Below are positions 6,247 to 29,107 of a stretch of DNA of 45,475 nt, one piece after another. A program made the position numbers and the translations under genes. Under the pieces are notes generated by a model that was not told the DNA's origin, did not search any database, and was given only the letters and a program-made list of their open reading frames with translations. This DNA is from a virus: the IMG/VR virus record IMGVR_UViG_3300032294_001387, positions 1 to 45,475 of that record; one strand, 5' to 3'. Each line of letters starts with the position of its first letter. The first letter of the stretch is position 1.

Positions 6247-6693
6247 TTAGGTTGAAAAGCTCGTCACATCTGTTGAACCGAACCATTCCCTCATCTTATT
6301 ATATTCGTAATCTGTTTGTTCAGATAGGCGTGTGTTAGGATCTAATGTGTTGCCCATAATAATATTGCCCCCACCCAGACGAGCAATGCACATATCTACG
6401 TTATCCCTCATAATATCTACACCATAGATATCCTTTAGAGCATCCTGTTCTGACATATTAAAGTGAAACATCTTTAGATACTTCACAGGCACCAGAAACT
6501 GACCATCACCACAAGCAGGATCAATAACAGTCTTACCTGGTGCGAATGTATTAATATCCATCTTTTGTAGAATCTCTATGACCAGATCTGTTGGTGTGAA
6601 TACCTCTCCGGTTTTCTTTACACGATCAGACATACGGTCTACGCCAGACATATATCCGTGTTGGTCAGCCAGTTCTTTAATCTTATCCCACAT
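6247..6693 (-). CDS. Short N6-adenine DNA methylase-like protein, 148 aa
   Basis: GEVFTPTDLVIEIL and DPACGDGQF (residues 58-66, SAM-binding motif I) then IYGVDI (motif II) are typical of N-6 adenine methylases. The catalytic NPPY motif is missing: the protein ends soon after GNTLDPN. It is therefore a SAM-binding half, possibly inactive alone, perhaps a regulatory partner of the full methylase just upstream, whose stop it overlaps by 11 bases. It could also be a truncated methylase; the intact ribosome binding site and frame argue it is still expressed. Confidence 0.75.
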   Translation of the reverse strand: MWDKIKELADQHGYMSGVDRMSDRVKKTGEVFTPTDLVIEILQKMDINTFAPGKTVIDPACGDGQFLVPVKYLKMFHFNMSEQDALKDIYGVDIMRDNVDMCIARLGGGNIIMGNTLDPNTRLSEQTDYEYNKMREWFGSTDVTSFST

Positions 6694-22666: not shown

Positions 22667-24082
22667 ATGAGCATCGAAAGAATAATTCTTTCTAATTTAT
22701 TATTCAATAATGATTATAACAGAAAAGTAATTCCTTTTCTTAAAAGCGAATATTTTCAAAATTATCCAGAGCGTGTTGTCTTTGATATTGTCGATGAATA
22801 TGTTAAGAAGTATAATTCTTTCCCTTCGATAGAAGCATTGGCTATAGATCTCTCTAACAAAGAAGGTCTAAACGATCAAGTATTCAAAGATAGCAAAGAT
22901 ATTATTTCTTCTTTGAATAACGATTCAACTACTAAGTTAGATTGGCTTCTTGATCAGACAGAGAAGTTCTGTCAGGATAAATCGCTTTATCTTGCGATCA
23001 TGAAGTCTATTAAAATAATGGATGAAAAAGATGGATCAATCTCCAAAGGAAGTATACCAGGAATCCTTACGGACGCTCTCGCTGTCTCTTTTGATACCCA
23101 TATTGGTCATGACTTTCTGGCTGATGCAGATGAGAGATACGAGTTCTACCATCGTAAAGAGAAAAGAATTCCCTTCGATCTTGACTACTTTAACGTCATT
23201 ACCAATGGTGGATTGCCGAACAAAACTCTCAATATCGCACTCGCAGGTACAGGTGTGGGTAAATCGTTATTCATGTGTCACTGTGCCGCAGCAAACCTAT
23301 CAAAAGGTCTCAATGTATTATACATTACATTAGAGATGGCTGAGGAGAGGATTGCAGAACGTATAGACTCTAATCTTCTGGATATTAGTATTGAAGAACT
23401 TGAACTCATTCCGAAGCAATCTTATGATACTAAGATAGAAAAACTCAGATCAAAGACACAAGGCAAGTTGATTATTAAAGAATATCCTACTGCTTGTGCT
23501 GGGTCCGCGAACTTTCGTCATCTCCTGAATGAATTGAAGATTAAGAAAAACTTTGAACCTGATATCATCTACATTGATTATCTAAATATATGTTTGTCAT
23601 CAAGGATTCGTCATGGAGCCAACGTCAATTCTTATACCCTTGTCAAAGCAATCGCAGAAGAACTCCGTGGGTTGGCAGTTGAGTGCGACGTCCCTATCGT
23701 CTCGGCAACTCAAACAACTCGAGGAGGCTATTCGAACTCAGACGTGGGACTGGAAGATACATCGGAATCCTTTGGACTCCCAGCCACAGCTGATTTTATG
23801 TTTGCACTCATCTCCAGTGAAGAACTTGAAAGTCTCAACCAGATCATGGTTAAGCAACTCAAGAATCGCTATAATGATCCTGGGACTAATCGTAGGTTTA
23901 TTGTTGGGATTGACCGTAGCAAAATGCGATTATATGACGTTGATCAATCCGCTCAAGAAGGTCTTACAGATGGACCAAATATAAGACCAGTCTTTGATAA
24001 TAGTAAGTTTGGTGAAGAAGAAAATGAGCGAGGAAAACCGAAAACGAAATTCGATAAAGCGAAGTTTGCAAATTTTAAATAG
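22667..24082 (+). CDS. 41: Replicative DNA helicase (T4 gp41/DnaB-like), 471 aa
   Basis: Hexameric 5'-3' helicase of the phage replisome. N-terminal helical domain (1-150), then RecA-like core with Walker A GTGVGKS (194-200), VLYITLEMAEERIAERID (H1a), DIIYIDYLNIC (Walker B) and VSATQT (H3). Pairs with the primase at 41283. AAGGAGAATAA before the ATG. The acidic-basic tail (KPKTKFDKAKFANFK) may contact partners. Confidence 0.95.
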   Translation: MSIERIILSNLLFNNDYNRKVIPFLKSEYFQNYPERVVFDIVDEYVKKYNSFPSIEALAIDLSNKEGLNDQVFKDSKDIISSLNNDSTTKLDWLLDQTEKFCQDKSLYLAIMKSIKIMDEKDGSISKGSIPGILTDALAVSFDTHIGHDFLADADERYEFYHRKEKRIPFDLDYFNVITNGGLPNKTLNIALAGTGVGKSLFMCHCAAANLSKGLNVLYITLEMAEERIAERIDSNLLDISIEELELIPKQSYDTKIEKLRSKTQGKLIIKEYPTACAGSANFRHLLNELKIKKNFEPDIIYIDYLNICLSSRIRHGANVNSYTLVKAIAEELRGLAVECDVPIVSATQTTRGGYSNSDVGLEDTSESFGLPATADFMFALISSEELESLNQIMVKQLKNRYNDPGTNRRFIVGIDRSKMRLYDVDQSAQEGLTDGPNIRPVFDNSKFGEEENERGKPKTKFDKAKFANFK

Positions 24083-24363: not shown

Positions 24364-24551
24364 TGATCGTATGTAGTTGTAATGAAATTGATACAAAAAA
24401 GATTCAGGCGGCAGTTCAACATGTTCACGAGCCTAATGAAAGGCTGGTTCTAAATATGATGAATTGGACGCCAGAATGCGCCACTTGTGGTAAACTGTTG
24501 GTTGAGGAAATCAGGAAGGTTCTAAAGGAGGCAACAAATGTCGTTCAGTAA
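24360..24551 (+). CDS. Bfd-like [2Fe-2S] protein, 63 aa
   Basis: Cys5, Cys7, Cys40, Cys43 give C-x-C-x32-C-x2-C, the exact ligand spacing of bacterioferritin-associated ferredoxin; VCSCNEI at the start and CATCGK at the end also match. Bfd reduces and releases iron stored in bacterioferritin. Length (64 aa in E. coli) is the same. It could instead be an Fe-S regulator. The overlap with the membrane proteins suggests one transcript. See Dps at 30392 for a possible partner. Confidence 0.8.
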   Translation: MMIVCSCNEIDTKKIQAAVQHVHEPNERLVLNMMNWTPECATCGKLLVEEIRKVLKEATNVVQ

Positions 24552-24741
24552 TTATAAGATCGTTGAAGCTGAAAATAAGACTCTGTATCACATCAAAGAA
24601 GTAAAGACTGAACATATAATTAAGACATTTAGCAATTTCTCAGAAGCTCGCAAATTCCTAACTCACCTTAATAAAGGCGGTGGATTTGCTGGTTGGTCGC
24701 CTAATTTTATTGTAAAAAGTTATGAAAATCCGAATTCTTAG
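24538..24741 (+). CDS. Hypothetical protein, 67 aa
   Basis: AAAGGAGGCAACAA ribosome binding site, overlapping the Bfd-like gene by 14 bases. YHIKEVKTEHIIKTFSNFSEARKFLTHLNKGGGF looks like a small alpha/beta protein of the type with a strand pair and a helix (phage 'transit' of KTF-x-F-x-EA). No family named. Last gene before the structured RNA. Confidence 0.6.
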   Translation: MSFSNYKIVEAENKTLYHIKEVKTEHIIKTFSNFSEARKFLTHLNKGGGFAGWSPNFIVKSYENPNS

Positions 24742-24742
24742 A

Positions 24743-24749
24743 CTAAATA
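24743..24749 (+). promoter_or_regulatory. Late-type promoter of the structured RNA
   Basis: CTAAATA, seven of eight positions shared with the late box counted as NTAAATA, 8 bases before the predicted RNA start at about 24757. Confidence 0.5.
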
Positions 24750-24756
24750 ATAACAT

Positions 24757-24897
24757 GAGAAATATGTAGTCCCTGCAATCGGGACAGCGGCAAGTGCCAC
24801 AGTATGGAGGGCATCGGAAAAGTCTGGAGTAAACGGTGGGGTTCCGCCAGACCATATTTCTATCTATATTACAGGGGAGGGCGAAAGCCTTCCCCTT
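24757..24897 (+). ncRNA. Candidate stand-alone structured RNA, about 140 nt
   Basis: No gene fits 24742-24939. Ends pair in a perfect 9-bp stem, AGAAATATG (24758-24766) with CATATTTCT (24853-24861). Inside: GTCCC/GGGAC (24769-24773, 24781-24785), GGC/GCC (24789-24791, 24796-24798), and GTCTGG/CCAGAC (24822-24827, 24847-24852) enclosing CGG/CCG. A terminator closes it and a late-type promoter starts it. Pieces such as GGCAAGTGCCAC and AGTCTGGAG faintly recall cobalamin riboswitches, but key parts are absent. Not a tRNA. Confidence 0.65.
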
Positions 24898-24900
24898 TTT
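24874..24900 (+). terminator. Rho-independent terminator with GAAA loop
   Basis: GGGGAGGGC (24874-24882) / GCCTTCCCC (24887-24895), 9 bp with one G-U pair, GAAA tetraloop, then TTTTT. Separates the structured RNA from the virion genes. Confidence 0.9.
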
Positions 24901-24906
24901 CATTAT

Positions 24907-24914
24907 TATAAATA
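24907..24914 (+). promoter_or_regulatory. T4-type late promoter of the virion block
   Basis: Exact TATAAATA, 26 bases before the first virion gene (24940), right after the terminator. Confidence 0.8.
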
Positions 24915-24939
24915 TGTAAAAACTCTGTGAGAGGAACTC

Positions 24940-25575
24940 ATGAAGAAATTTACTGATCATATCTTTGAAGAGAAAAAGGATCCTACGTCCGATACATTTC
25001 ATGCTTTTGACATCGATGATACTTTATTTCATCATGACAAGAACAAACTCCGTATACATGTTAAAAATCCTAATGGTCGCCGTGTAAGAACTCTTACTAC
25101 AAAAGAATACGCAAACCATACACTGGATCCTGGGCATACTTATGATTTCACAGAGTTCAAATCCGCAGACACTTTCAAAAAATCAGCCAAACCTATTCGT
25201 AAGATGATTGCGAAGCTGAAAGCGATTCATAAAAACAATAAAAATGTAGAGCTACTTACAGCAAGATCAGACCTTGACGACAAGGACAAATTCGGTCATT
25301 ATATGAATCAGTTCGGTATAGATACCAACGAGATTCATGTTCGTCGAGCAGGTAATCACGAAGAAGTTCCAGGTCATGTAGCAAAAGCAATGATTATGAG
25401 CGACCAGATAAATAAGAATGGATATAAAAAAGTTCACTTATACGACGATTCAGAGGCAAACTTAAAAGAGTTTCTCAGGCTCAAAAAGAAACACCCAGAG
25501 GTGGAGTTTCATGCCCATCATGTTCAACACGATCCTGAGACTGATAGAGTCGTTGTAACTACAAGGAAAGTATGA
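24940..25575 (+). CDS. HAD-like phosphatase with capsid-targeting N-terminus, 211 aa
   Basis: HAD motif I FDIDDT (Asp24, Asp26), motif II region VELLTARSD, motif IV HLYDDSE, so a phosphatase or phosphohydrolase; the substrate is not evident. Residues 1-10 (MKKFTDHIFE) match the T4 internal-protein targeting signature, with predicted cleavage after Glu10. The same gene order with a HAD protein in the late region occurs in cyanophages (recall). GAGGAACTC before ATG. Overlaps the next gene by four bases. Confidence 0.8.
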   Translation: MKKFTDHIFEEKKDPTSDTFHAFDIDDTLFHHDKNKLRIHVKNPNGRRVRTLTTKEYANHTLDPGHTYDFTEFKSADTFKKSAKPIRKMIAKLKAIHKNNKNVELLTARSDLDDKDKFGHYMNQFGIDTNEIHVRRAGNHEEVPGHVAKAMIMSDQINKNGYKKVHLYDDSEANLKEFLRLKKKHPEVEFHAHHVQHDPETDRVVVTTRKV

Positions 25576-28173: not shown

Positions 28174-29096
28174 AAAGATTCAAATATCATCTAAAAGAAA
28201 ACGCTGTAGTTGGGCACCATATCACATTTGGTAGAGGCAATCCATTTCATGAGATGCATGCTCAGCTTGGTAATCATGTAAAGAATTCTGCTGAAGATGA
28301 GGGCGCTGGGCACTCTGTTATTCTTTCTGGTAGTTCTGGTGATATCAAAAACCCACTAACTCCTGAACAGAAACTAAAACATGCGCAAAGAGCCATGCCA
28401 GGCGTGAATGTAGTTGTTGCTGATAAAGCTGCTCCTACATTGTTGCATCATGCGGCAAAACTACATCAAGAAGGTGTGAATGATCTTGCTGTTCATGTTG
28501 GTTCTGATCGTGTAAACGAGTTTCAGGATCTATTGAACAAATATAACGGGACTCATGATAAAGCTCTGTATAACTTCAATAGAATCCGTGTTCTACCATT
28601 CGGAGACGAACGAGCAGATAGCGATGAAGGAGCCGCTGGATTTTCTGCCTCGAAAATGAGAGCTCTGGCGGCTGTTGCATCAGATACATCTCCGGAAGGT
28701 ATTTCGGCTCGTAAACAGTTTCATGCGATGGCTCCACAGGCTATGACTCCTGAGCAGAAAGATGAAATGCTTCGCGACACTCAGGCAGGTCTACAGGCAG
28801 CAGCTGTTCCTAAACCCAGAAAGAAAAAAGTAGTAGCCGAATCAACTACTACTGCAGATGTTGCTGGTATGACAGACGACAGTGGATTTGATGCTATGCC
28901 AGACGATGTGAACGCTGGCTTTGCTGGTATGGTAAATAAAATGAACGGTATGTCTTCTGTCAAGTTCAATCAGACTTATGACCCTGAGACTCGTATGCCC
29001 AGCGCAATCTCTAAGAATGTTAGGCAATTATTCTCAAGAGGTCATGGACCAGCAGCTGCAAGAGCTTTTTCGAGAAAAAAGAAGCAAGACTCTTAA
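28170..29096 (+). CDS. Cytidylyltransferase-like protein with capsid-targeting N-terminus, 308 aa
   Basis: MKRFKYHLKE (targeting signature), then GRGNPFHEMH (21-30), the GxxNPxHxxH form of the nucleotidylyltransferase superfamily, and FSASKMR (about residue 166), the matching ISxTxxR motif. Such 'cytitidyltransferase' proteins are standard late-region genes of T4-type cyanophages. The substrate is unknown. The C-terminal third (after 215) is unrelated and may be structural. ATGA overlap with the previous gene. Confidence 0.78.
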   Translation: MKRFKYHLKENAVVGHHITFGRGNPFHEMHAQLGNHVKNSAEDEGAGHSVILSGSSGDIKNPLTPEQKLKHAQRAMPGVNVVVADKAAPTLLHHAAKLHQEGVNDLAVHVGSDRVNEFQDLLNKYNGTHDKALYNFNRIRVLPFGDERADSDEGAAGFSASKMRALAAVASDTSPEGISARKQFHAMAPQAMTPEQKDEMLRDTQAGLQAAAVPKPRKKKVVAESTTTADVAGMTDDSGFDAMPDDVNAGFAGMVNKMNGMSSVKFNQTYDPETRMPSAISKNVRQLFSRGHGPAAARAFSRKKKQDS

Positions 29097-29100
29097 ATAA

Positions 29101-29107
29101 CTAAATA
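29101..29107 (+). promoter_or_regulatory. Late-type promoter (CTAAATA)
   Basis: CTAAATA right behind the nucleotidylyltransferase stop; its last base is the A of an in-frame ATG at 29107, which would therefore lie upstream of the transcript start. Confidence 0.5.

Follow-up and report, generated by a model that had tools for sequence, protein, structure and literature searches.

A conserved RNA beside the helicase gene of uncultured T4-like phages, probably transcribed as a stand-alone unit

Structured RNA genes are few in lytic phages, and most of them have no known purpose. T4 itself makes two stable RNA species, 1 and 2, from rnaC and rnaD; they are late, and their function is unknown (PMC9697503). 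Other RNA elements described in T4-like phages, namely, the wcaG, manA, glnA, and PhotoRC RNAs and the CfrI antisense RNA of cyanophages, are cis-regulatory or antisense (PMC9964418, PMC12197685). Here, we describe an RNA element found in a 45,475-nucleotide stretch of an uncultured viral record (IMGVR_UViG_3300032294_001387), which we refer to in its entirety as the window. In the window, the element is preceded by T4-type replication genes (PolB, a UvsX-like recombinase, and a DnaB-like helicase) and followed by genes for a HAD-like/polynucleotide-kinase-related protein and a cytidyltransferase, with more genes beyond; no tRNA genes and no Rfam RNAs were found in it. We propose that the element likely encodes a structured RNA of about 140 nt that stands alone, acts in trans, and has its own promoter and terminator, a proposal made without expression data, and that it likely represents an RNA family inherited within a clade of uncultured T4-like phages.

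A conserved four-way-junction fold

By inspection of the sequence, a promoter-like CTAAATA, a roughly 105-nt folded RNA, and an intrinsic terminator follow one another within positions 24743 to 24900 of the window (Table 1). A perfect 9-bp stem, AGAAATATG / CATATTTCT, closes the folded domain, which has three helices inside. The original prediction, made from the sequence alone, had named a late-type promoter, this closing stem, at least three inner stems, and a terminator with a GAAA loop; all of these held, with the inner structure slightly corrected by relatives. The right-arm fold suggested by the single sequence (GGUGG/CCGCC) was rejected, as CGA/UCG and CAC/GUG in relatives support P4 plus P4b, and a mini-hairpin (GGC-ACGA-GCC) was dropped in favor of P3. 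The single-sequence fold has an energy of -54.4 kcal/mol, versus -41.5 +/- 3.7 kcal/mol for shuffled sequences (z = -3.5), and beats 199 of 200 dinucleotide shuffles. On its own this test is weak because the terminator contributes part of the stability, and it is the comparative evidence, not single-sequence energy, that decides the question of the fold.

Table 1. Positions of the RNA element's parts and of neighboring features in the window
Feature	Position	Strand	Basis or remark
DnaB-like replicative helicase gene	22667..24082	+	Fixed landmark near the RNA across the family
Conserved small gene (67 aa), function unknown	24538..24741	+	Usual neighbor of the RNA; also occurs without it
Late-type promoter element of the RNA, CTAAATA	24743..24749	+	Sequence; equivalent element upstream in relatives
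P1, 5' strand, AGAAATATG	24758..24766	+	Sequence and fold; covaries
P2 hairpin, GUCCC UGCAAUC GGGAC	24769..24785	+	Every pair changed on both sides in the 30-sequence alignment
J23, conserved unpaired block, GCGGCAAG (family GNGGCAMG)	24787..24794	+	Kept in 38/39 members retrieved via a different part of the RNA
P3, GUGCC (24794-24798) / GGCAU (24810-24814)	24794..24814	+	Sequence; pair types in relatives
J34, conserved unpaired block, CGGAAAA (family GGAANA)	24815..24821	+	Conserved across relatives
P4, GUCUGG (24822-24827) / CCAGAC (24847-24852), bulge AGUAAA	24822..24852	+	100% paired, many pair types
P4b, apical, CGG (24834-24836) / CCG (24844-24846)	within P4	+	Paired in 101/101 members, 10 sequence combinations
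Apical loop UGGGGUU (UGGUGGUU in one subgroup)	24837..24843	+	Conserved in relatives
P1, 3' strand, CAUAUUUCU	24853..24861	+	Sequence, fold, and covariation
Intrinsic terminator, AGGGGAGGGC-GAAA-GCCTTCCCCT-TTTTT (GAAA tetraloop and T tract)	24873..24900	+	Sequence; inferred 3' end of the transcript
Distinct late-type promoter, belonging to the next gene, TATAAATA, outside the RNA	24907..24914	+	Sequence

The first relatives were retrieved with DNA patterns taken from the window together with one neighboring-protein search, and they include diverged members in the corresponding gap, with the helicase side at one end and the HAD gene at the other. A pattern for the P4 arm matched 36 contigs and its inner 16 nt matched 66, a few of the hits in these two scans being due to chance, and a free-spacing pattern of the conserved unpaired blocks matched 95 contigs against about 5 expected by our own estimate. 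In all, scanning viral contigs by pattern and searching them through the helicase yielded 101 distinct sequences on 164 contigs, many of which are fragments; each long matching contig carries a single copy of the RNA. Three covariance models were built stepwise, and their E values are rough, given the short calibration. The second model, trained without the L003/L004 group, nonetheless recovered that group at E values of 7e-5 to 3e-3, and the whole-family model recovered 51 of the 53 sequences in the last set at E < 0.01.

Could the family be an artifact of the patterns used to collect it? The patterns do favor the conserved arm, and the invariance of UGGGGUU/GGGGUU is partly built into them. 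A route that relied on the helicase only (80 loci) gave the RNA again in L144, L147, L148, L153, L161, L165, and L191, and the family is therefore not a pattern artifact. Two measures of conservation are also free of search bias: among members found through P4, all but 1 of 39 keep J23, and among those found through J23/J34, all 59 have a paired P4b, built from nine different sequence combinations. One possible remote member was excluded. In L168 (approximately positions 6279 to 6540), after the helicase, there follow TATAAATA, a stem AGGTGTC/GACACCT, GGAAAA, a stem GCGGGT/ACCCGC with the loop TAGGGGTTT, and a terminator; this arrangement resembles a member by eye, but the covariance model gave no match.

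The family fold is a four-way junction in which P1 closes the domain and P2, P3, and P4 form hairpins. An alignment of all subgroups with MAFFT misaligned the 5' half, and the lineages were aligned separately. In lineage 1 (30 sequences, aligned with MAFFT and not fitted to the structure), 87% of cells pair and 21 of 28 pairs changed on both sides; the covariation score is 0.433, versus 0.185 when shuffled (0/500) and about 0.08 when slid. Lineage 2 behaves similarly, with 19 of 29 pairs changed on both sides and a covariation of 0.360 versus 0.177. No cell of either alignment leaves P4 unpaired; P1 and P3 of lineage 2 are less uniform (76 to 79% of cells), in part owing to alignment shifts. 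In relatives, P3 appears as GCC/GGC, GUC/GAC, GAC/GUC, or UGUGA/UCACA, and the P4 bulge differs by lineage: one has 3 to 6 nt there, and the other has an additional hairpin, P4a. The helices hold 57 G-U against 16 A-C combinations, a pointer that the sense strand acts as RNA. In total, these computations show that the four-way-junction fold is conserved and that its helices undergo compensatory change. The original prediction would have fallen had homologues lacked conserved pairing or had Rfam identified a known element; pairing is conserved and an Rfam match is absent, and both outcomes favor a structured RNA.

Transcription unit and genomic address

The promoter-like element upstream of the RNA is one that we take to be of the T4 late promoter type (TATAAATA), and the transcript is inferred to start at about 24755 to 24757. 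Among the 94 members with full context, a TAAATA-type promoter lies upstream within a narrow range of distances in 93 (versus 4.6% of random windows), and a terminator follows in all 94 (versus 2.8% of the background), such that both flank every complete copy except one. Two criteria for a stand-alone T4-type late unit, promoter spacing and an intrinsic terminator, are thus met, in the absence of expression data. The proposed independent transcript of about 140 nt is accordingly supported by conserved pairing, promoter, and terminator, and no transcript data bear on it. Similar promoter elements lie no more than a few tens of bases before the window genes starting at 24940, 29107, 32007, 34961, and 36943, for which late-promoter activity is not demonstrated. 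As a separate observation, NTAAATA elements at 29093-29101, 31974, 34932, and 36907 lie shortly before open reading frames (ORFs) of the presumed virion block, a placement that fits T4-type late promoters.

The gap had been described as gene free. This holds for the plus strand, where it lies between ORFs 24538-24741 and 24940-25575; on the minus strand, an ORF of 114 aa (24658-25002) runs antisense across the RNA. A coding role for this ORF is disfavored because the differences in RNA length among relatives are not divisible by three.

The element had also been placed before the virion block, which is true in the window and not general: the constant neighbor is the helicase side, and one clade is reversed. 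In same-strand phages, the helicase is followed, often via a small gene with the motif LNxGGGFxGxTPxF, by the RNA and then by one of at least 12 unrelated genes. In the other lineage, the RNA lies in this gap too, but on the opposite strand, directed toward the small gene and the helicase, with no codirectional gene behind it. A tree of the helicases places the opposite-strand phages together in a single clade (support, 0.999), next to the same-strand phages. Because most loci in this tree were fetched through the RNA, it speaks to the inheritance of orientation and not to the frequency of the RNA; the label "none" for L147 and L153 reflects pattern-based labeling, and the covariance model finds the RNA in both. 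The split of the tree by strand depicts an RNA gene that keeps its place while changing direction. The RNA's own start and stop, its variable downstream gene, and its presence on either strand at the same address make a leader very unlikely and support a trans-acting RNA.

Several side observations concern this neighborhood. The site past the RNA terminator looks like a frequent point of gene exchange, given the at least 12 unrelated followers in same-strand contigs, and in the opposite-strand clade (L191, L161, and L229 to L308) the RNA gene has switched strand relative to its neighbors and stayed in the gap. The LNxGGGFxGxTPxF gene, of 60 to 75 aa, lies between the helicase and the RNA in most members and is present without the RNA in L149, L150, and L156; comparison with PHROG and, by tblastn, with cultured phages returned no match for it. 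In L002 (1500 to 2700), a close relative of the window whose HAD protein is 90% identical, the corresponding gap holds other genes and terminators and no RNA, and in L155 the gap after the helicase holds several apparent tRNA-like stretches in place of the RNA.

How widespread is the RNA? Two helicase relatives, L149 and L150, carry the small gene and lack the RNA, which is therefore dispensable in some phages. The covariance model did not find it in ten cultured or single-cell T4-like genomes (T4, P-SSM2, DSL-LC02, DSL-LC03, S-SRM01, Melnitz, HTVC008M, phiM9, Cr30, and AG-345-F15), and when seven members or stretches were compared by blastn with 50,697 phage records, only terminator-like or chance pieces came back. 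A set of 52 pattern matches in bacterial genomes was dismissed as chance, none of them fitting the covariance model. No cultured phage carrying the RNA was found in these searches, and no host is known.

Possible function and rival explanations

What might such an RNA do? The helices compensate while the unpaired blocks stay constant, which suggests a recognized three-dimensional core. This pattern, together with the lack of enrichment of the loop complement, leads us to favor, with modest confidence, a function exerted with protein or with the ribosome. In our model, the RNA would be made late in infection, an inference from the late-type promoter, as no transcript has been seen. It would work as an RNA-protein particle in which GNGGCAMG, GGAANA, and the UGGGGUU loop form a binding surface; the partner, inferred without binding data, may be the ribosome or a protein of phage or host origin, and the particle would modulate late gene expression or assembly. 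That the RNA is a protein-bound regulator or scaffold of late infection is thus an inference that we hold tentatively and that could well prove wrong. A bolder reading, which we offer as no more than a possibility, is that the family represents a new class of RNA-protein particle, long carried by environmental T4-like phages, made late in infection, and needed for takeover of host gene expression or for virion assembly; as part of the same speculation, its active surface would consist of the invariant junction blocks and the UGGGGUU loop.

The best surviving rival, which we nonetheless judge unlikely, is a base-pairing small RNA in which the UGGGGUU loop or a junction strand serves as the seed for phage or host mRNAs and the rest is a scaffold for stability. 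In its favor, the RNA is short and stand-alone, ends in an intrinsic terminator, and exposes a loop that hardly varies. However, the loop complement AACCCCA occurs 215 times in 2.8 Mb of phage sequence against 188 expected, which is hardly an enrichment, and the RNA genes must themselves account for most of these occurrences; the window holds a single sense AACCCCA outside the RNA, and conservation of the junction blocks roughly equals that of the loop.

Three further rivals seem to us very unlikely. By analogy with the phi29 pRNA, the RNA could serve in DNA packaging or be carried in the virion, a role consistent with its late-type promoter, its junction-rich fold, its similar size, and its vertical inheritance. 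T4-type packaging, however, is known to proceed without RNA; moreover, the family has no Rfam match and adjoins the helicase gene, not the terminase gene. A catalytic RNA, whether self-cleaving or processing, would account for the compact multihelix junction and the conserved unpaired cores, but there are no matches to Rfam catalytic families and no evidence of cleavage. Finally, the element could act as DNA, that is, as a replication origin with an RNA primer, a cruciform, or a recombination site; it adjoins the replicative helicase gene in either orientation, and its position is conserved. Against this reading stand the excess of G-U over A-C on one strand and the promoter and terminator that flank nearly all complete copies.

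A cis-regulatory leader or riboswitch whose terminator controls virion genes is, in our view, the least likely reading: although the RNA in the window lies upstream of a virion-side gene and its terminator follows the folded domain, the window and most same-strand members have a fresh TATAAATA promoter after that terminator, the downstream genes are diverse or, in the opposite-strand clade, missing, and the terminator sequences diverge between close relatives whose folded domains are nearly identical.

Whatever its function, a consensus drawn from about 100 distinct sequences, together with its promoter, its terminator, and a constant genomic position, provides a defined RNA that can be searched for in metatranscriptomes and used as bait. 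The question of what a late phage RNA does thereby becomes directly testable.

Relation to known phage RNAs

To our knowledge, no described stand-alone phage RNA family among those tested includes this RNA, although the loose category itself is known. When the window and ten relatives, chosen to span different subgroups, were searched against Rfam 15, the RNA matched no family above the cutoff, the only hit being an unrelated tRNA elsewhere in L042, and no description was found in the open-access literature searched (subscription papers were outside the scope).

The original prediction had pointed to fragments resembling the cobalamin riboswitch. This part failed: the Rfam search gave no match to the cobalamin family at the gathering score, and none up to E = 10. 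The two RNAs have a few short strings in common, but the window RNA is not the leader of a linked gene set and has a different junction architecture.

The phi29 packaging RNA is likewise a short, junction-containing phage RNA; the family described here differs in phage type, place, and promoter, and the Rfam search did not link the two. The wcaG, manA, glnA, PhotoRC, and CfrI RNAs are, like the present family, RNA elements of T4-like phages. In contrast to them, the family RNA carries a promoter and terminator of its own and is absent from the tested cyanophages, and those of the five that are in Rfam give no match.

The nearest likeness is to T4 rnaC and rnaD, with which the family shares the form of a stand-alone small RNA of 120 to 140 nt, a T4-like phage as its carrier, a late class (here inferred from the promoter alone), and an unknown function. 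The best model score in the T4 rnaC/rnaD region is noise, and the whole T4 genome holds no match. The addresses differ as well, in that rnaC and rnaD sit in a tRNA cluster, whereas the family RNA adjoins the helicase gene in a window without tRNA genes. Given the negative results from Rfam 15, T4 rnaC/rnaD, and the literature, we consider it likely that this RNA family is new to the catalogues, while its function may prove to be of a known sort.
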